Source: Methylomonas sp. LW13 | GTDB lineage: Bacteria; Pseudomonadota; Gammaproteobacteria; Methylococcales; Methylomonadaceae | Direction: 5' to 3' | Assembly (NCBI RefSeq): GCF_016865255.1 | Contig: NZ_CP033381.1 | Span: forward strand, 4,216,001-4,280,000 | DNA length: 64,000 bases | Shown here: one piece after another, positions 43 to 8,570 of the stretch | How positions within the stretch are numbered: position 1 is the stretch's first letter | Layout of the letters: the number at the start of each line of letters is the position of its first letter | Notes under the pieces: model-generated | The model's database searches: none | Seen by the model: the letters and a program-made list of their open reading frames with translations, nothing else | What the model was told of the DNA's origin: nothing | Position numbers and translations under genes: made by a program

Positions 43-405
43 ATGCAGGTCGAGATCGACAAGTTGCATCAGCAAGCGTTCAAACCAACCCATCCCGGCA
101 GCGCTCTACTTCACGAGATTCAATACGAAGAGGCGTCCCTGGCTCAATTGATTCTTTTCGGCATCTCCAAGTGCACGACTGCCCCCAGACAGCAACTAGA
201 GCACCTCGGAAAATGGAAGGTTTCGACACGAACCAAACAGCAAGAACTTGTGGAGATTGAGAATCAGCGGTTGGCCTTGCGAGAGCAAACGGTCAGCGCC
301 TCGACGTTTTCTTGGATCCAGTTGAACCTCTGGCCCTACGTGCTCATAGCAGCCCTGTCGCTGAAGTTTGGTAAGGGGGTAGCAGCAGTTCGCAAAGCAA
401 GCTGA
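43..405 (+). CDS. Hypothetical small protein with one C-terminal membrane segment
   Basis: The 120-residue product is not recognised. It has a charged, partly helical N-terminal part with Glu/Gln-rich coiled-coil character around residues 60-85 and one hydrophobic segment near residues 97-112 followed by Lys/Arg, so it is probably a single-pass inner-membrane protein. An AGGAG sits just upstream of the ATG with only about 3 nt spacing. The stop codon is followed within one base by GCCTAAC and an imperfect palindrome, which resembles the end of an integron gene cassette. Nothing in its neighbours points to a function. It is a plausible real gene because of the RBS and the coherent membrane segment. 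Confidence 0.55.
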   Translation: MQVEIDKLHQQAFKPTHPGSALLHEIQYEEASLAQLILFGISKCTTAPRQQLEHLGKWKVSTRTKQQELVEIENQRLALREQTVSASTFSWIQLNLWPYVLIAALSLKFGKGVAAVRKAS

Positions 406-406
406 G

Positions 407-521
407 GCCTAACATGTTGGTCAAACGGTCCCGCCACGGCCAGGGCGCCTCGCCTCCGCGGGTCAGTTACCTCTACGCTAATCGTTCATTCAAAAATCCA
501 CCACGATAGACAGCGTTAGGT
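407..521 (+). repeat. attC-like imperfect palindrome after the first gene
   Basis: GCCTAAC at 407-413 follows the stop codon of the preceding gene and GTTAGGT lies at 515-521. Between them, 428-438 and 462-472 are nearly complementary (9 of 11 positions), and GTTACCTCTACGCTAAT at about 468-482 looks like a decayed right arm. The inverse-core, stem and core order is that of an attC recombination site, but the arms are degenerate and no integrase is visible. It could also be an unrelated hairpin or terminator. Confidence 0.3.
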
Positions 522-571
522 CGAAAACGTTATTCAGGAAGATCTGAGTCGTCGTATACCTGAAATGTTTG

Positions 572-2164
572 TCAGTAAAACACCCTAAACAAACGCTGAA
601 TCTGCCCAAACTCGTAGAGATAGGGCTGGGCCACGTCGCGGTTGGCGGCGACGACGATCAAGTCGTGGGAGAACACCGAGGTGTTGTACCAGTTGAAACT
701 ACCATCAATGACGATGTAATCGTCAATCACGCAATATTTGCTATGGATGGGCGAATACGGCACCGGCAAGTCGTCTTGGCCATAGACCAATCCCACTCGA
801 ATCCCAGCATCGCGCAGACGTTGCACGGCCGGTAACAGTGGTCGTGCCAATTCGTCGGCCATACTGCGCTCGACGCCGATTTTGCCTTGACGGGCCAAGT
901 GGCCGTTGAACAGCAGCTGCACATCAACACCACGGTCGCGGGCCTGGATCAAGGCGTTGACGACGCTATCGTGGTGATCGCCCAGCAAATCGCCGATCAA
1001 AAACAAACACAACTTCAAGGAGCGGCGCGCTCTATGAATTTCCGCCAATATCGCGTGATGCGGCCGGTAAACCCTGCCATTGGCCATGGTGTGGCGGCCA
1101 AAGGTGTATAGCAGATTGAACGGACTGAGCGGATCGACGCCATACTTTTGAATCACGCCGCCGCGCTGGCTCTGGAAGATGTTATCCAGCAAGCGGCACA
1201 CACCCTTGGAATGAAAACTCATCCCGGATTCCCAATTGGCCCACCAACGATCAAAGGTGATGTTAAACGAGCCGATAATGCAATCCTCGTCGTTGAAGAT
1301 CACGAACTTGGTGTGCATGTCCGGCTCGACTTCGATCAAGTGGTGTTTGGGCGTGCAAAACACCCCCACTAGTTCAATACCGGAGCGCTTCAAGCGCGCG
1401 TAATTCTGGCTATTGGTCAGCGTCATCTTCCGCCAATCGACAATGCATTGCACCCAAACACCCTGCTGGCTGGCATGAATCAAGTGATTAATAAAATCGC
1501 CGTCGTCTATGCAATCCACGCTGACTTTGATGGTGCATAAGCGGTCTGGCTGACTGTGTTTGGCCGCGATGACTTTATCGATATGATCGTGAATAAAACG
1601 CTTGGGGTGATACGGGTGAAATTGCTGGCCCTTGGTAAATTTGGGGGTCAGTTGCAGGGAATCGAAATGATGGTTGTACCAATCCACATCACTCTGCAAT
1701 TGACCTGGGTCCAGCTCATAACTGCGGAAATGGTTGGGCGTGGCCCAATGCTCGTTGATATGGCGCTGCTGCGGGTGGTTATCCCTTAACTGGTCGCCGT
1801 CCATGAAAATATACTCATGGCGCGAGGCGATGGAATGCTCACCCAAATGCACGATAAACGAGAACTTGATGCAGCTGATCTTGCCGAACTGCCCGGAATA
1901 CGGCATCACGTAAAAATCCCGCGTCGAGCGTTTGTGCTTGTCCCATTCCACGTCATAAGCATCGGTGTCGACGATATAGGTCTCGCAAATCGACTCCCGA
2001 TACACCTTCAGCACCACCTTCAAGTTAGCGGCTATGCCGTGCGACAGATGAAAGTCTATCTTGCCCCAGCGAACGTCGAAGGTTTCCCTGAAATCGTTAC
2101 CTCGTTGGAAACAACCGCCCAATTTGCCAAATACCGGTTTGGCGTAATGTTCTGCTACTTGCAT
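572..2164 (-). CDS. Phospholipase D-like domain protein, glycogen-cluster associated
   Basis: A 530-residue protein with two phospholipase D-type half-sites. The second is canonical (H474-x-K476-x4-D481, followed by GSFNWY). The first is HTKFVIFND at residues 284-292, where Asn sits at the usual Asp position and Asp follows it, then GSFN. The family cleaves or transfers phosphodiester bonds through a His nucleophile, with substrates from lipids to nucleic acids. The first 150 or so residues form a separate beta-rich-looking domain that I cannot name. No signal peptide is seen, so it is probably cytoplasmic. It is the last gene of a leftward run with a CBM21-EEP phosphoesterase and a GH57 branching enzyme, which hints at a role linked to glycogen or its granule. 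Substrate is unknown. Confidence 0.8.
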   Translation of the reverse strand: MQVAEHYAKPVFGKLGGCFQRGNDFRETFDVRWGKIDFHLSHGIAANLKVVLKVYRESICETYIVDTDAYDVEWDKHKRSTRDFYVMPYSGQFGKISCIKFSFIVHLGEHSIASRHEYIFMDGDQLRDNHPQQRHINEHWATPNHFRSYELDPGQLQSDVDWYNHHFDSLQLTPKFTKGQQFHPYHPKRFIHDHIDKVIAAKHSQPDRLCTIKVSVDCIDDGDFINHLIHASQQGVWVQCIVDWRKMTLTNSQNYARLKRSGIELVGVFCTPKHHLIEVEPDMHTKFVIFNDEDCIIGSFNITFDRWWANWESGMSFHSKGVCRLLDNIFQSQRGGVIQKYGVDPLSPFNLLYTFGRHTMANGRVYRPHHAILAEIHRARRSLKLCLFLIGDLLGDHHDSVVNALIQARDRGVDVQLLFNGHLARQGKIGVERSMADELARPLLPAVQRLRDAGIRVGLVYGQDDLPVPYSPIHSKYCVIDDYIVIDGSFNWYNTSVFSHDLIVVAANRDVAQPYLYEFGQIQRLFRVFY

Positions 2165-2230
2165 ATGGTGCTGCCTAATTAAACAAGCTTTATCTTAATT
2201 GTAAAATCGCCTACGGGGACCTCAAAACAT

Positions 2231-2336
2231 TAAAAACCTCCTTCTCCCTCAGGGAGAAGCTTGGGATGAGGGGATTAAAATCCATTGTTTACATCCCTCA
2301 CCCCAGCCCTCTCCCTGAGGGAAGGGGATTTTTAGA
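2231..2336. repeat. Intergenic inverted repeat of the CCCTCACCC/CCCTCTCCC type
   Basis: Two roughly 40 bp arms, at about 2234-2273 and 2292-2334, are largely complementary (CTCCCTCAGGGAGA-like core, then GGGATGAGGGGA against CATCCCTCACCCC). A loop rich in A/T separates them. The element lies between two genes of the same strand. A shorter relative occurs at 60920-60982. It looks like a miniature palindromic element common in gammaproteobacterial intergenic spaces; an RNA-processing or terminator role is possible. Confidence 0.6.
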
Positions 2337-2358
2337 GGTTGCCCCTTTGCAATTCAGT

Positions 2359-3855
2359 TTATAGCGGCTCAAAGGTTAACAGATAGCCGCAATGATCCGA
2401 TACCGGCCCGTAATCCTGCTCGGTGAACACGGTTCGCGCCGAGCTGGCCCGCAAGCCGCTATTCCTGTCCATGAAAATGTAATCGATTCGATAATCGTCG
2501 GCCAGATAATCCCGCCAATGCGCATCGTTAACCCGAAAAATTTGTTCGAACAACGCCGGGGCGTTGGCGGCGAGATATTGATCTTCGTATTGATGGCCGT
2601 CGACCACCAGTTGATAGCCCGTCGAACCGGCGGCGATATTGAAATCACCGCATAGCAAGGTGGCATCCACCTCGGCGCTGCGTTTATCGTTCGCCCACGC
2701 GGATAGTCGTTGAAATTGTTGCTGGAAACCGTCTTCCCACCAACTTAAATGCGCGGAAAACACATCGACGGTACCGACATACGGCACCTTGATCCGCGCC
2801 GATACCACTTTGCGGGAATGAATGCTATAGGCATCGTGGCTATCGGATACGTAGCGGGCTTCTTGCTCTATAAAGGGATAGCGGCTAAGAATGGCCACGC
2901 CCTCGCGGAATTTGTCGAACCCCAGGTGCGACCAATCCGTGTACAGATGAAACGGTTGCGGCAAGCGCTGGTTGATGATATTAGCAGAATTGGACGGCCA
3001 ATCGCCGCGCCCGTCATTCCAATACTCGGCCACTTCCTGCAGGCAAACCACATCCGCGCCCAACTCGTCGATAGCGTTAGCAATTTGCCAAAATTTCCGG
3101 TCTTGGTCTTCCTCTTGGTAACAGTGCAGATTCAAAATCAACAGCCGTAGCGGCGTGCGGCTTAGCGCGTAATTTTGCCCGGCATTGTTATCCCACAGCC
3201 GTTGCTGCTTGTTTTCACAGCAGATGCTGTATTGCAAACGAAAAGCGTCCCCTACCCTGATCCGCCCGTTCCACACTTGCGCAAGATGCAAGCCGGCATA
3301 GAGGGCTTTATGGGCAGACTTCCTTTGCGCCTGGCGGCGGCAGCTGGTGGTGTGACTGTGTTGCCAATCGTCGATAGTCCAATGGATCGTGACATGGTCT
3401 ATTTCCAGCGCAGCGTCCACCGCCAGTTTGACCGGCACGGAATGTTGCCCGTCCTGAAGTTGTTCGGCGTGGCTCAATTGCAGCATGGCCGCGGCACTGG
3501 TCAATCTAGCCCCACTACCCGCGCCGCTAAAATAGTCGCCACCTTCGTTGTTGTCCCAATATTCGCTGCCGGCTGCTTGCAGACGCAAAGCAAAACGAAT
3601 ATCGCCGGGTATGTCGGCATGCGGCTGCGGCGGAAATAGGATGTCGGCCTGCCAATACTCCTGCCTGTCTTCCGCCTTACGGTTGAATAAGGCCGGCAAA
3701 ACATGCCAGACGCCATCTTCGCCGGCCCAGAGCACGTCAACTTGCTTGTGATAATCCAGGTCGGCCACCCGCATCAAAAACTGCAAGGATTGCTGACAGG
3801 CGGCGGCTTTGCCGGTGACGTTATTGGCTACATACAACAATTGGATGTTATCCAT
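2359..3855 (-). CDS. EEP-family phosphoesterase with two CBM21-like starch-binding modules
   Basis: A 498-residue protein. Residues about 236-498 form an endonuclease/exonuclease/phosphatase (EEP) domain: LLILNLHCYQ at the start, LQE with the metal-binding Glu near 274, CGDFN near 405, and a terminal SDHCG. The first 235 residues carry two copies of a WDNNxGxxY motif (W100-Y108 and W221-Y229), each ending a roughly 110-residue beta-rich stretch. This is the hallmark of CBM21-type starch/glycogen-binding modules. The fusion suggests a Mg-dependent phosphoesterase docked on glycogen, for example removing phosphate or acting on a lipid or sugar phosphate there. That is inference, since EEP enzymes include DNases, sphingomyelinases and inositol phosphatases. 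It is co-oriented with the GH57 branching enzyme 48 bp upstream. No signal peptide is seen. Confidence 0.8.
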   Translation of the reverse strand: MDNIQLLYVANNVTGKAAACQQSLQFLMRVADLDYHKQVDVLWAGEDGVWHVLPALFNRKAEDRQEYWQADILFPPQPHADIPGDIRFALRLQAAGSEYWDNNEGGDYFSGAGSGARLTSAAAMLQLSHAEQLQDGQHSVPVKLAVDAALEIDHVTIHWTIDDWQHSHTTSCRRQAQRKSAHKALYAGLHLAQVWNGRIRVGDAFRLQYSICCENKQQRLWDNNAGQNYALSRTPLRLLILNLHCYQEEDQDRKFWQIANAIDELGADVVCLQEVAEYWNDGRGDWPSNSANIINQRLPQPFHLYTDWSHLGFDKFREGVAILSRYPFIEQEARYVSDSHDAYSIHSRKVVSARIKVPYVGTVDVFSAHLSWWEDGFQQQFQRLSAWANDKRSAEVDATLLCGDFNIAAGSTGYQLVVDGHQYEDQYLAANAPALFEQIFRVNDAHWRDYLADDYRIDYIFMDRNSGLRASSARTVFTEQDYGPVSDHCGYLLTFEPL

Positions 3856-3903
3856 AGCTCCCCCTGGAGGTTGGGTTAAGCAGTGCCCAAAACGGGCCTT
3901 TGT

Positions 3904-5493
3904 CTAGGCGGCATAATGGCGAAAATCGATGTCAGGAAAAATATCGTCCATGATTTCCAGCGCGGTCAGGTAGCGTTCATCGATACGGTTTTTGCGAATC
4001 GCATCGTGCAGATAATTAAAACGAGCCAAATGGTCGGTGATGCGTTTGCGCGCATAATCGATAGTGGTACCGGCCTTCATGATAAACGGCCAATCCGAAG
4101 ACTGCGCCAGCAACAATGACCGGGCAGCCTGATTTAACGCCCGTTGTTGTAAATCACTCACAGTAAAACCGCGTAAATCGTTGGCCAGCTTTTCCATTTC
4201 GGCGGCGGCCTTGTGTAACAGGGGATAAATCCAGTCATTGCTTTCGTTCAGCCAATAACTGGAATAACCGTGTTCGCCCCAACTGGAAGCGGCCGGCGTA
4301 GCCTGCACATGCTGCAACGGCAATTGCAAATAATCGCCGCAACTGACGGTCTGGATACCGTTTTCGCTGCTCGCCGCCAAGCGTAACACTTGTTCAAGCC
4401 ATAAAGGCCCTTCGAACCACCAATGTCCGAATAGTTCAGCATCGTAAGGCGCGACGATAAGCGGCGCTTGCGGCATTTCCGCAGTCAGCGCGTCAATTTG
4501 CTGCTGACGGCGCACGATAAAATCCTCGGCATGTTGGCGCGCCTTCTGCTTGGCCCGCTCCGGTTGGTACACCTGCTTGGTTTGCTTGGCGCCGGTAATC
4601 CGGTAGTACTTGATGCCGGTGTTGATCCGGGTTTCGCCGTCCAGAATATAAGGCGCGATATATTCCAAGGGCAAGTCAAAGCCGATGTCGCGATAATACT
4701 CGCGATAATCCCCATCCCCCGGATAGCCTTCCTCGGCGCTCCACACCTGCCGCGACGAAGCCGGATCGCGGCCGAACGCCGCCACGCCATTGCCGCAATC
4801 CAACGGCGCATACACACCATGGCGCGGCGGTTGGTCGGCATCCATGACTGCATGGCTATCGACGAAAAAATAAGTGATGCCTTCGGCTTTTAGCGCCTGT
4901 TCCAGGCCCGGATAGTAACCGCATTCCGGCAACCAAAATCCGCTGGGTGCAAAGCCGAATTGGCTCTTAAAACTGGCGATACCCACGCCGATTTGATTAC
5001 GCACCGACACCGGACTGACATTTAACAAGGGTAAAAAGCCATGGGTGGCTGCGGTGGTAATCAACTCCAGGCAGCCCGCGCTGTGATGCCGTTGAAACTC
5101 CGTCAGCAAATCGCATTCATAGCGGTGCTGGTAGCGATGCAAGGCGTCCTGAAACCACTGCATATACATCTGCGCCAGCGGCTCGAACTGCGGTAGCCCG
5201 CGCGTGCGCTCCAACTCCCGCTCCGCCAGTTCCAGCCGGCCTTGCAGATAATGCAGATAACGGTTTTGCAGCAAGGGATCGCGCAACATCGTCATCAACG
5301 TCGGCGACAAGGACAAGGTCAGCCGGTACGGCACTTGATCGACATGCAAACGTTCCAGCATCGCCAACAAGGGCAAATAGCATTCGGTAATGGCTTCGAA
5401 CAACCAGTTTTCTTCAAAAAAACTGTCGTGTTCGGGATGATGCACATAGGGCAAATGGGCATGCAAAACGATGCTGAGATAGCCTTTGTTCAT
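3904..5493 (-). CDS. GH57-family 1,4-alpha-glucan branching enzyme
   Basis: A 529-residue protein of glycoside hydrolase family 57 with the DUF1957-type C-terminus. Visible family motifs are HAHLPYV at residues 11-17, GFWLPECGYYPG with the predicted nucleophile Glu190, and APYDAELFGHWW with the predicted acid Asp351. Length matches the roughly 520-560 residue bacterial branching enzymes. It should transfer alpha-1,4-glucan segments to make alpha-1,6 branches during glycogen synthesis in the cytoplasm. The DUF4912-type gene lies upstream with only about 7 bp between stop and start, so the two are very likely co-transcribed. The debranching enzyme GlgX is divergent just beyond. Some GH57 relatives are amylases or 4-alpha-glucanotransferases, but the C-terminal domain favours branching activity. 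Confidence 0.88.
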   Translation of the reverse strand: MNKGYLSIVLHAHLPYVHHPEHDSFFEENWLFEAITECYLPLLAMLERLHVDQVPYRLTLSLSPTLMTMLRDPLLQNRYLHYLQGRLELAERELERTRGLPQFEPLAQMYMQWFQDALHRYQHRYECDLLTEFQRHHSAGCLELITTAATHGFLPLLNVSPVSVRNQIGVGIASFKSQFGFAPSGFWLPECGYYPGLEQALKAEGITYFFVDSHAVMDADQPPRHGVYAPLDCGNGVAAFGRDPASSRQVWSAEEGYPGDGDYREYYRDIGFDLPLEYIAPYILDGETRINTGIKYYRITGAKQTKQVYQPERAKQKARQHAEDFIVRRQQQIDALTAEMPQAPLIVAPYDAELFGHWWFEGPLWLEQVLRLAASSENGIQTVSCGDYLQLPLQHVQATPAASSWGEHGYSSYWLNESNDWIYPLLHKAAAEMEKLANDLRGFTVSDLQQRALNQAARSLLLAQSSDWPFIMKAGTTIDYARKRITDHLARFNYLHDAIRKNRIDERYLTALEIMDDIFPDIDFRHYAA

Positions 5494-5500
5494 CGCGGAA

Positions 5501-6193
5501 TTAGTTTTGTTGGCCGGACGCGGTTACGGCAAGCGCCGAAGACGCCTGGGAAGGCAGCATTATAAACTGCGCCATCGCCGGCGACAGCCTTTCCGTCATC
5601 GGCGACACTTGCGGCGCGACTGCGGCAGCCTGCGAATACGCCAAGGGATTGAATTCCTGCTGAGCATTGAGCCGACCAATCGCCACCTGATAAATCCCGG
5701 CGATGCAGGTGTCGCCGCTGGGCAGCGTAATCTGCTGTTGGCTGCGTTCGGCGGCAACCGGCACATCGAACCAGGTTTTGGCCGATTCAGCCGGCAACGG
5801 GACCGCTTCGGGCGGCGCAGGATGACTGTATACGCGCAAGGTCAAAGGCTGGACATCTGCCGGTGGCTCGGTAAGCGGCACAGACGCCTGAGCGGCTTCA
5901 TCCAGCTGCCAATAGACATGAATATGTTCCGGATCGACCGGCAACGCCACCAGCTTGGCGCTTTCAGCTTGGGCGGCAGCGCGTTGCTGGGGTGGGGCAA
6001 ATTCGCGATTAATCTGCTGACTAATGCTTAACAACTCTTGCGGCGAGAAGCCAGTACTCGTTAACCGCGCCGCGCCGGCTCTAAACCGGCGCGGGGCAAA
6101 ACCCCGGCTAATCTCCAGACTGATAGCCCGCATTTCCTCCGCAGAAAGCGGCATGCGGACTTGAGACGGTGAGGAGGAAAAGGCCATCGGCAA
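5501..6193 (-). CDS. DUF4912-type protein with a duplicated N-terminal motif
   Basis: A 230-residue protein. Residues about 85-185 match the DUF4912 pattern (PVDPEHIHVYWQLDE, then a beta-rich stretch ending in AGIYQVAIGRL), a domain often found next to GH57 branching enzymes. The N-terminus holds two copies of a roughly 20-residue motif: residues 16-34 (LSAEEMRAISLEISRGFAP) and 49-67 (FSPQELLSISQQINREFAP). The last 40 residues are Ala/Gln/Ser-rich. No signal peptide or membrane segment is seen. It is the first gene of the leftward glycogen operon and may be a regulator or scaffold of branching. The function of the family is not established to my knowledge. Confidence 0.7.
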   Translation of the reverse strand: MPMAFSSSPSQVRMPLSAEEMRAISLEISRGFAPRRFRAGAARLTSTGFSPQELLSISQQINREFAPPQQRAAAQAESAKLVALPVDPEHIHVYWQLDEAAQASVPLTEPPADVQPLTLRVYSHPAPPEAVPLPAESAKTWFDVPVAAERSQQQITLPSGDTCIAGIYQVAIGRLNAQQEFNPLAYSQAAAVAPQVSPMTERLSPAMAQFIMLPSQASSALAVTASGQQN

Positions 6194-6371
6194 TGTTAAC
6201 GGGTCGGGTGACTAGGTTTTATCCTGTGGGTAGCGGACACTCCGCGACGTATCGCCGCAGCGACCAGGCTTTATAGACTCTAACCGTTGTCGATTATTTA
6301 CGCAAGGCGTAGGCCCGCAGCCCTTATATGCAGTAAAATCAGGACTAATTCACAGTTTCTCGGTAAAGGGC

Positions 6372-8570
6372 ATGCACAAACCATACAGTTTAAAGTCAGG
6401 GAGTCCCTATCCTCACGGCGCCCGGGTCAGCGAGGGCGGCGTCAACTTCTCCATCTCCAGCCGCCACGCGACGGACGTGGAACTGCTGTTATTTGCCGAA
6501 TCCGACAGCATAAAACCTTTACAAGTCATACCCTTACAAAAAGAGAAAAACCATACGTTTTTCTCCTGGCACGTGTTTGTCGAAGAACTGCCGGTCGGCA
6601 CCTGGTATGCGTGGCGCATCGACGGCCCCGCCAACACGCGCGAATCGGGCTTGCGGTTTGATCGCGAAAAATTATTGCTGGACCCTTGGGCGCGCGCAAT
6701 CAGCGACAAATTATGGAACCGCGCCGCCGCCTGCAAGCCCGGTGATAATAGCCAACATGCCATGCGCGCGGTGGTGGTAGATGACCGTTACGACTGGGAA
6801 GGCGACACACCGCTGGCTATTCGCAGCGAAAAAGCCATTATTTACGAATTGCATGTCGGCGGCTTTACCCGTCACACCTCCGCCAAGGTTAAACACCCCG
6901 GCACCTTTATCGGCCTGATCGAAAAAATCCCTTACCTGAAAAAGCTGGGCATTACCCATGTCGAACTGCTGCCTATCATGGCCTTCGACGAGCAAGACGT
7001 GCCGCCGCATACCGCCGATCTGGGCTTGAAAAACTATTGGGGCTACAGCACGCACAGCTTCTTTAGCCCGCATCCCGGATACTGCGTCACGCCGGAACAA
7101 GGCACGCATATCCGCGAATTCCGCGATCTGGTGAAAGCCTTGCACAAGGCCGGCATCGGCGTGATCATGGACGTGGTGTTCAATCACACCTCCGAAGCCG
7201 GCGCCGACGGTCCGGTGATCAATTTCAAAGGCATTACCGGCAACAGCTTTTATTTGACCGACAAGCACGACAAACGCATCTTTCACGACTATACCGGCTG
7301 CGGCAACACCGTGAACGCCAACCACCCGCTGGTCACCAACTTCATCATCAGCTGCCTGGAATACTGGGTGCGGGAAATGCATGTGGATGGCTTTAGATTC
7401 GACCTGGCCAGCGCGTTGGCGCGCGGCGAAGACGGCAGCGTACTGCAGGATCCGCCGCTGGTCTGGGGCATAGAACTATCCGAACAACTGGCCAAAACCA
7501 AGCTAATTGCGGAGGCCTGGGATGCCTCGGGACTATACCAAGTCGGCAACTTTCCCGGCTACCGCTGGGGCGAATGGAACGGCCGCTACCGCGACGTAAT
7601 TCGCCGCTTCCTGCGCGGCGACACCGGCATCATCGCCGAAGTGGCCACCCGAATTTGCGGCAGTAGCGATCTCTATCAACATCAGCACCGCTTGCCGATC
7701 AGCGGCATTAACTTTGTCACCTGCCACGACGGTTTTACGTTAAAAGACTTGTTCAGCTACAACGAAAAACACAATACCGCCAACGGCGAAAACAATCGAG
7801 ACGGTTGCAGTAATAATCTCAGCAGCAACTGCGGCGTGGAAGGCCCAACCCCCGACCCGGCCATAGTCAAACTGCGGCGGCAACAGGTGAAAAACGCCTT
7901 TACGGTTTTGCTGCTTAGCCATGGCGTACCGATGTTGCTGGCTGGCGACGAATTTCTGCACACCCAGCAAGGCAATAACAACTGTTATTGTCAGGATAAC
8001 GAATTGAGCTGGCTGAATTGGGATAAAGCCAAGGACAATGCCGACGTGCTGCACTTTGTGCAGCAGATGATCCGTTTGCGCAAACGCCATCCGGCCTTGA
8101 TGCGCCGAAACTTCCTCACCGGCCGAAAAATGGAAGATAAGGATATGGCCGACATCAGCTGGCATGGCCTGGAAGTAGATCAACCGCCGCGTTGGGACGA
8201 CCCGAACACGCGGATTCTGGCCTTTACGCTGGCGGCATTAGGCAAAGATGAACCCGACCTGCACGCAATAATGAACATGTCCGACAGCAAACACAACCTG
8301 CAGCTACCGGAGGTTGAGGGCAAGAGCTGGTGTCTGGCCGTGGATACCGCGCAAACATCGCCCAAAGACATTATCGAGCCGGCCGAGCAAAAAGCACTGA
8401 GCAGACCCTGGTATACCGTGGAGCCGCACTCCATTGTGGTGTTTGAAAACACCCATCAAACCGGTATCGATGGAGGCGATAGCGTGGCCAAACGGTCCGC
8501 CAGTTTTTTCAGCAAATTGACCGGCATCAAGTTGCTCGACCAGCCGGCGACGGAAATACCGACAAGTTAA
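6372..8570 (+). CDS. glgX: Glycogen debranching enzyme GlgX
   Basis: A 732-residue GH13 isoamylase-type protein. It begins with an E-set/CBM48 module (about residues 8-110, SPYPHGARVSEGGVNFSIS). The catalytic barrel follows with all signature regions: DVVFNHTSE, DGFRFDLASAL with the nucleophile Asp, LIAEAWD with the acid Glu, and VTCHDGF with His-Asp. A C-terminal beta domain completes it. It removes alpha-1,6-linked branches from phosphorylase-limit dextrin during glycogen breakdown in the cytoplasm. It is transcribed divergently from the DUF4912/GH57 operon, so synthesis and breakdown genes share the intergenic space 6194-6371. The C-terminal 40 residues past the barrel are a little longer than in typical GlgX. 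Confidence 0.93.
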   Translation: MHKPYSLKSGSPYPHGARVSEGGVNFSISSRHATDVELLLFAESDSIKPLQVIPLQKEKNHTFFSWHVFVEELPVGTWYAWRIDGPANTRESGLRFDREKLLLDPWARAISDKLWNRAAACKPGDNSQHAMRAVVVDDRYDWEGDTPLAIRSEKAIIYELHVGGFTRHTSAKVKHPGTFIGLIEKIPYLKKLGITHVELLPIMAFDEQDVPPHTADLGLKNYWGYSTHSFFSPHPGYCVTPEQGTHIREFRDLVKALHKAGIGVIMDVVFNHTSEAGADGPVINFKGITGNSFYLTDKHDKRIFHDYTGCGNTVNANHPLVTNFIISCLEYWVREMHVDGFRFDLASALARGEDGSVLQDPPLVWGIELSEQLAKTKLIAEAWDASGLYQVGNFPGYRWGEWNGRYRDVIRRFLRGDTGIIAEVATRICGSSDLYQHQHRLPISGINFVTCHDGFTLKDLFSYNEKHNTANGENNRDGCSNNLSSNCGVEGPTPDPAIVKLRRQQVKNAFTVLLLSHGVPMLLAGDEFLHTQQGNNNCYCQDNELSWLNWDKAKDNADVLHFVQQMIRLRKRHPALMRRNFLTGRKMEDKDMADISWHGLEVDQPPRWDDPNTRILAFTLAALGKDEPDLHAIMNMSDSKHNLQLPEVEGKSWCLAVDTAQTSPKDIIEPAEQKALSRPWYTVEPHSIVVFENTHQTGIDGGDSVAKRSASFFSKLTGIKLLDQPATEIPTS

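Follow-up and report, generated by a model that had tools for sequence, protein, structure and literature searches.

We analyzed a 64,000-nucleotide (nt) stretch of the Methylomonas sp. LW13 genome (NZ_CP033381.1, positions 4,216,001 to 4,280,000), hereafter the window, and concentrated on one gene near its start that lies among genes of glycogen metabolism (Table 1). The gene is a single open reading frame (ORF) of 498 residues with an ATG start, running on the minus strand from 3855 to 2359, with a strong Shine-Dalgarno-like sequence, GGGGGAG, immediately 5' of the start codon. An earlier reading of this DNA from its letters alone (here, the sequence-only reading) had given the right coordinates and left out the strand; the plus strand of the same interval has several stops in the frame from base 2359. 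That reading had also proposed that one chain joins a pair of CBM21 modules to a complete EEP domain. Both the ORF and Pfam bear this out, as the whole protein matches CBM_21 in two stretches (1.6e-15) and Exo_endo_phos, the EEP family, at 7.2e-18. All nine named relatives come from Methylomonas, four of them at 91-95% identity, in keeping with a Methylomonas genome as the source of the window.

The genes on the minus strand run in the order DUF4912, GH57 branching enzyme, CBM21-EEP, and PLD-like, with GlgX divergent. A 48-bp gap separates the branching enzyme from the CBM21-EEP gene downstream. The next gap, 194 bp long and leading to the PLD gene, holds a terminator-like stem, so the PLD gene may have its own transcription; terminator-like sites in the region from 400 to 6500 are no commoner than in shuffles (5 found versus 7.2). 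The glycogen gene neighborhood noted in the sequence-only reading is real, with the GH57 branching enzyme, DUF4912, and GlgX all recognized by Pfam or NCBIfam, and the NCBIfam branching-enzyme models match the window GH57 protein at scores below their cut-offs. The DUF4912 gene precedes the branching enzyme in the window and in 16 of the 29 related loci compared, and its product diverges fast (29-92% identity).

Table 1. Features of the CBM21-EEP locus, in window coordinates.
Feature	Position	Strand	Evidence
Predicted glycogen-tethered phosphatase (CBM21-CBM21-EEP), 498 aa	2359..3855	-	ORF; Pfam CBM_21 (two) and Exo_endo_phos
CBM21 module 1	3532..3798	-	Pfam match residues 20-108; WDNN motif 100-108 at 3532-3558
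CBM21 module 2	3163..3486	-	Pfam match 154-231, with strands between about residues 124 and 221; WDNN motif 221-229 at 3169-3195
EEP domain (predicted phosphatase), residues 236-498, MapP-type branch	2362..3150	-	Pfam, 3teb profile match, tree, motifs
Terminator-like stem between CBM21-EEP and PLD genes	2241..2259	-	Pattern scan only
PLD-superfamily protein, 530 aa, genomic partner of CBM21-EEP gene	572..2164	-	PLDc_2 9.1e-35
GH57 1,4-alpha-glucan branching enzyme	3904..5493	-	Pfam GH57 and BE_C
DUF4912 protein, first gene of likely operon	5501..6193	-	Pfam 2.9e-09
GlgX glycogen debranching enzyme, divergent	6372..8570	+	TIGR02100 700.7 bits, cut-off 640.9

The two N-terminal modules had been recognized from their WDNN motifs, which lie at the residues claimed. 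Scanned alone against the CBM21 profile, module 1 (residues 1-120) of the window protein scores 30.0 bits and module 2 (residues 121-233) scores 35.1 bits, with the Pfam gathering cut-off at 28.9 bits. We compiled a family set of 25 sequences, the window protein plus 24 relatives at 47-76% identity, and CBM_21 is matched in both modules by all 25 members (E≤1). Against the PDB, the module 1 profile finds the fungal glucoamylase starch-binding CBM21 2djm (1.8e-08) as well as PPP1R3A/B/C, and the best match of module 2 is PPP1R3C (1.7e-09). The modules also resemble each other, at a probability of 97.4% in a profile-profile comparison.

Aromatic and asparagine positions of the ligand-binding kind are kept in both modules across the family alignment of 25 members. 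In module 1 these are W43 (25/25), W50 (24/25), and N102 (25/25), and in module 2 W164, W221, N224, and Y229 (25/25 each); W100, which opens the first WDNN motif, is kept in 24/25. When module 1 is aligned to 2djm, W50 falls over W47, Y35 over Y32, and N102 over N96, which we take to be sugar-binding residues in that domain; position Y35 is occupied by Tyr in 18, Phe in 5, and other residues in 2 of the 25 members. An AF2 model of moderate mean pLDDT (70.1) has beta-strands between residues 4 and 221 and an alpha/beta domain from residue 236. No CBM21 structure is among the 50 Foldseek matches listed for this model, which leaves sequence profiles and predicted strands as the basis for the module folds.

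The EEP domain is complete, as had been claimed: it matches its profile along with an invariant set of catalytic positions, N242, E274, H369, D404, N406, D458, and H488, in all 25 family members. We presume that N242, E274, D404, N406, D458, and H488 have the catalytic roles usual for EEP enzymes. These positions line up with E. coli XthA, in which a Tyr stands opposite H369. In the PDB, the EEP domain profile matches 3teb at 1.1e-30, with the next chains at 0.0011, and 3teb is also the top Foldseek match (2.0e-13).

To place the domain within the EEP superfamily, we built a profile from seven MapP-type proteins, a label resting on gene context and relatedness. All 15 CBM21-EEP rows match this profile at 122-152 bits (137.8 for the window protein), as do all seven stand-alone EEP paralogues described below (125-141 bits) and one further gammaproteobacterial protein (139 bits). 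All 10 other EEPs score 35.4 bits or less, the E. coli proteins ExoIII, YbhP, and YafD reaching 16.0, 20.1, and 3.0. A tree unites the CBM21-EEP proteins, the stand-alone paralogue, the one further protein, and the MapP-type proteins, apart from the ten other EEPs (96/91). A second tree, with four long outgroup rows omitted, recovers the same branch apart from six other EEPs (100/100); both trees carry long-branch warnings. ExoIII and YbhP fall outside the branch in the first tree, as does YbhP in the second. CBM21-EEP lies nearer to the stand-alone paralogue than to MapP-type proteins in the first tree, and the order is unresolved in the second. Short motifs follow the same division, with SDHxG and EGx[AG] present in 40/40 sequences inside the branch and 0/10 outside, and HxxW, anywhere in the sequence, in 39/40 branch members and 1/10 others. 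At the level of sequence, then, the EEP domain groups with MapP-type proteins rather than with nucleases by profile, tree, and motifs.

PMC3737437 reports that MapP, an EEP-family enzyme, is a maltose-6-phosphate phosphatase and that its gene lies downstream of malT. The MapP-type genes that we found on plasmids follow a PTS IIBC gene in 5/5 annotated neighborhoods examined, with GH65 and pgmB (beta-phosphoglucomutase) genes in two; a sixth record is unannotated at that place. Another MapP-type EEP gene, gammaproteobacterial and from another family (L071:1-3729), is flanked by genes for glycogen phosphorylase and PTS EIIC. Because MapP-type genes have these PTS and glycogen phosphorylase contexts and MapP has the activity reported in that source, branch membership points to a sugar phosphate.

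Other members of the branch have different architectures. The stand-alone EEP paralogue occurs in 24 of the 101 genomes surveyed below, although not in the window's own, and is 33-38% identical (seven loci: L058:5880-6722, L059, and L061-L065); in two of the seven it shares the locus with PhoD or alkaline phosphatase genes. A further EEP of the same branch (L070:1297-2283) has, by eye, a signal resembling a lipoprotein N-terminus and so is possibly exported.

We then examined the distribution of the fusion in 101 genomes, the window's own and 100 relatives. CBM21-EEP is full length in 45, all among the 61 genomes of its own family, and two further genomes of the order have weak matches to the EEP part only. 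In a class sample, 12 of 369 genomes match the EEP-protein profile, with the CBM21 part covered in the window's own alone; the other 11 matches lie within the EEP part or immediately before it. In a phylum sample of 349 genomes, the Pfam CBM21 family is found in one, the window's own, and none of 14 control genomes has it. No full-length CBM21-EEP was thus seen outside the family in the order, class, and phylum samples, whose listed matches are of the same class or nearer and which may cover other classes thinly. Plasmids were the sole search for the fusion beyond the phylum: 63 records match the CBM21-EEP protein, with genus tallies equal to those of the 61 records found with a MapP-type query plus two, and no CBM21 part is matched among the matches listed, which are 30 of the 63 records.

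Within the family, the gene keeps company with glycogen metabolism. CBM21-EEP lies within 3.5 kb of a GH57 branching enzyme in 33 of the 45 genomes. At least 6 of the 45 have GlgA no more than 3.5 kb from the EEP or PLD gene (gene places were typed for 14 genomes), and at least 36 of the 45 have either the GH57 branching enzyme or GlgA/glycogen synthase within that distance of one or the other gene. One of the GlgA-containing clusters also has GH77, GH57, a GlgC-type nucleotidyltransferase, and GlgB. Across the 61 genomes of the family, 43 have both the GH57 branching enzyme and CBM21-EEP, 1 has the enzyme alone, 2 have CBM21-EEP alone, and 15 have neither (Fisher p 3e-11, with kinship ignored). 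GlgA is above its cut-off in 79 of the 101 genomes versus the 45 with CBM21-EEP, so many genomes make glycogen without this protein.

The distribution of the PLD-like protein follows that of CBM21-EEP. Full-length copies occur in precisely those 45 of the 101 genomes, with a weak fragment in one further genome, and in the class sample the protein is present in 1 of 369 genomes, the window's own. In 36 of the 45, the two genes are neighbors on the same strand; three genomes have them on one contig but separated by 177 kb to 1.6 Mb, and six have them on different contigs. This strict co-occurrence suggests a second phosphoester step.

Other features of the PLD-like protein were also examined. 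Its first HKD-like motif has Asn (N291, 19/19 rows) in place of the usual Asp. No Pfam family matches its N-terminal 160 residues, and we rejected this region as a further CBM21, at profile-profile sensitivity, on probabilities of 0.2 and 0.1 against the two modules. Two analogies for the pair were set aside. YbhP-ClsB of E. coli is an EEP-PLD pair, but YbhP lies outside the branch and was rejected as close kin. A defense system was discarded as well, since the DrmC and Mko matches of the PLD-like protein look like general PLD similarity and PADLOC gave no match to the EEP protein. The EEP protein also has no match in PHROGs.

On balance, we favor the prediction that the CBM21-EEP protein is a cytosolic, glycogen-bound phosphomonoesterase. 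The two CBM21 modules would hold the protein on alpha-glucan, where the MapP-related EEP domain, presumably metal dependent, would remove phosphate esters from the polymer, most likely from glucose-6-phosphate residues. Such removal could keep branching, debranching, and phosphorolysis unblocked. The sequence-only reading had suggested a phosphatase or nuclease of the glycogen surface. Its architecture and the idea of a surface enzyme gain support from the profiles, conservation, neighborhood, and predicted strands, and of its two options the evidence favors a sugar phosphatase, as the CBM21-EEP rows score 122-152 bits with the MapP-type profile versus 35.4 bits or less for the other EEPs. We infer that the substrate may be narrowed to phosphorylated alpha-glucan. 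Several observations count against a glycogen phosphatase. No glucan water dikinase is apparent in the window's own genome, where two of the three PPDK_N genes were scanned and have no glucan-binding domain. In 9 of the 45 genomes, neither a branching-enzyme nor a GlgA gene lies within 3.5 kb, and in four of these nine (L039, L041, L043, and L048) the EEP-PLD pair stands, by eye, among genes that do not look related to glycogen. GlgA also passes its cut-off in more genomes (79) than have CBM21-EEP (45), and the PTS context typical of MapP-type genes is absent at this locus. The moderate confidence of the AF2 model and the differing order within the branch in the two trees weigh on the same side.

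The catalytic domain is compatible with other substrates, among which small sugars deserve the most attention. Because the substrate of MapP, the closest characterized relative, is a soluble disaccharide phosphate, and because a CBM-free paralogue exists in 24 of the 101 genomes, the enzyme might hydrolyze maltose 6'-phosphate, maltodextrin phosphates, or trehalose 6-phosphate, with the CBM21 modules serving only to keep it close to the enzymes of glycogen breakdown by which such sugars are made or used. We consider this rather unlikely: the presence of two CBM21 modules in all 25 family members argues for a polymer, and no PTS gene lies beside CBM21-EEP among the neighbors examined. A tethered nuclease or phospholipid phosphodiesterase would fit EEP superfamily membership, and Foldseek does list Tdp2 and DNase1L3 after 3teb. 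ExoIII, YbhP, and YafD nevertheless lie outside the branch, far below the 137.8 bits of the window protein in the MapP-type profile; Tdp2 is absent among the 17 PDB matches of the EEP profile (E≤10), and no PADLOC defense model matches the EEP protein, which together leave such an activity very improbable. Even less credible is a glycogen-targeted protein phosphatase that acts on glycogen enzymes in the manner of the PP1 glycogen-targeting subunits. The best solved relatives of module 2 are indeed PPP1R3 subunits, but the catalytic domain belongs to the MapP-type EEP branch and to no protein-phosphatase family.

The remaining alternative concerns the genomic partner. Phosphoesters are the substrates of PLD and EEP enzymes alike, and the two genes share the same 45 genomes, with adjacency on one strand in 36. 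The two proteins could therefore act jointly on phosphodiester-linked material on glycogen, the PLD-like protein opening the diester and the EEP domain removing the monoester, or the reverse. The N-terminal region of the PLD-like protein has no similarity to CBM21 and its AF2 model (mean pLDDT 42.6) is too poor for use as evidence, and we regard joint action of this kind as the primary function as quite unlikely. Combined with the favored glycogen-bound phosphomonoesterase, the co-occurrence allows a broader and more tentative proposal, namely that Methylomonadaceae might clear covalent phosphate from glycogen with two enzymes, an EEP phosphatase tethered by its CBM21 modules and a PLD-like protein that is its obligate partner and acts on phosphodiesters.

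Dephosphorylation of glycogen has so far been described in animals, plants, algae, and protists, where it is performed by enzymes unrelated to EEP. For bacteria and archaea, a 2009 survey of laforin and SEX4 (PMC2714694) states that both kinds of domain exist but that no protein combines a phosphatase with a carbohydrate-binding domain, and it judges a bacterial glucan phosphatase unlikely. According to the relevant passages of a 2025 article (PMC13011383), all known glucan phosphatases are dual-specificity phosphatases. The same passages leave the phosphorylation of bacterial glycogen open, allowing that bacteria perhaps have no glucan phosphate and that their branching enzymes may meet none, which counts against the glycogen phosphatase that we favor. 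They also report that glucan phosphate reduces the substrate affinity of branching enzymes, with no mention there of GH57 enzymes; the CBM21-EEP gene follows a GH57 branching enzyme at a distance of 48 bp. In the open-licence literature, we found no bacterial glucan phosphatase, no clear answer on phosphate in bacterial glycogen, and no previously described family with the CBM21-EEP architecture. If the two-enzyme proposal is true, bacteria would have their first glycogen phosphatase, one that is also the first to lack the dual-specificity phosphatase fold, and the phosphate on some bacterial glycogen would be added without glucan water dikinase. The question is directly testable, as it turns on a single conserved gene and metabolic engineering is already practiced in Methylomonas.

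Comparison with known systems brings out which parts of this protein are familiar. The nearest solved EEP structure by both sequence and fold is 3teb, an EEP protein of Leptotrichia buccalis, but it is matched over the EEP part only and is uncharacterized, with an entry title that names no function. The catalytic domain falls in the same EEP branch as the MapP-type proteins, and the gene context is related to alpha-glucan in both cases. The MapP-type proteins examined consist of one domain and are encoded behind a PTS IIBC gene, whereas the window protein has two CBM21 modules and is encoded beside glycogen genes. The PP1 glycogen-targeting subunits PPP1R3A/B/C share CBM21 with the window protein and include the best PDB profile relatives of module 2. 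These subunits recruit a separate PP1 catalytic subunit, whereas the window protein has an unrelated catalytic domain in the same chain.

Two parallels in design are laforin (CBM20-DSP) and SEX4 (DSP-CBM), the glucan-binding module of the latter being termed CBM21 in part of PMC2714694. In both, a glucan-binding module and a phosphatase occupy one chain, as would be the case here if the activity predicted from the branch is correct. Laforin and SEX4 are, in the passages of PMC2714694 and PMC13011383 that describe them, dual-specificity phosphatases of eukaryotes, whereas the window protein is bacterial and has an EEP domain; Pfam (E≤1) finds no DSP domain in it, only EEP and CBM families. The CBM21-EEP protein may thus do the same job as laforin and SEX4 with a different catalytic fold, which, if true, would be a case of convergence.
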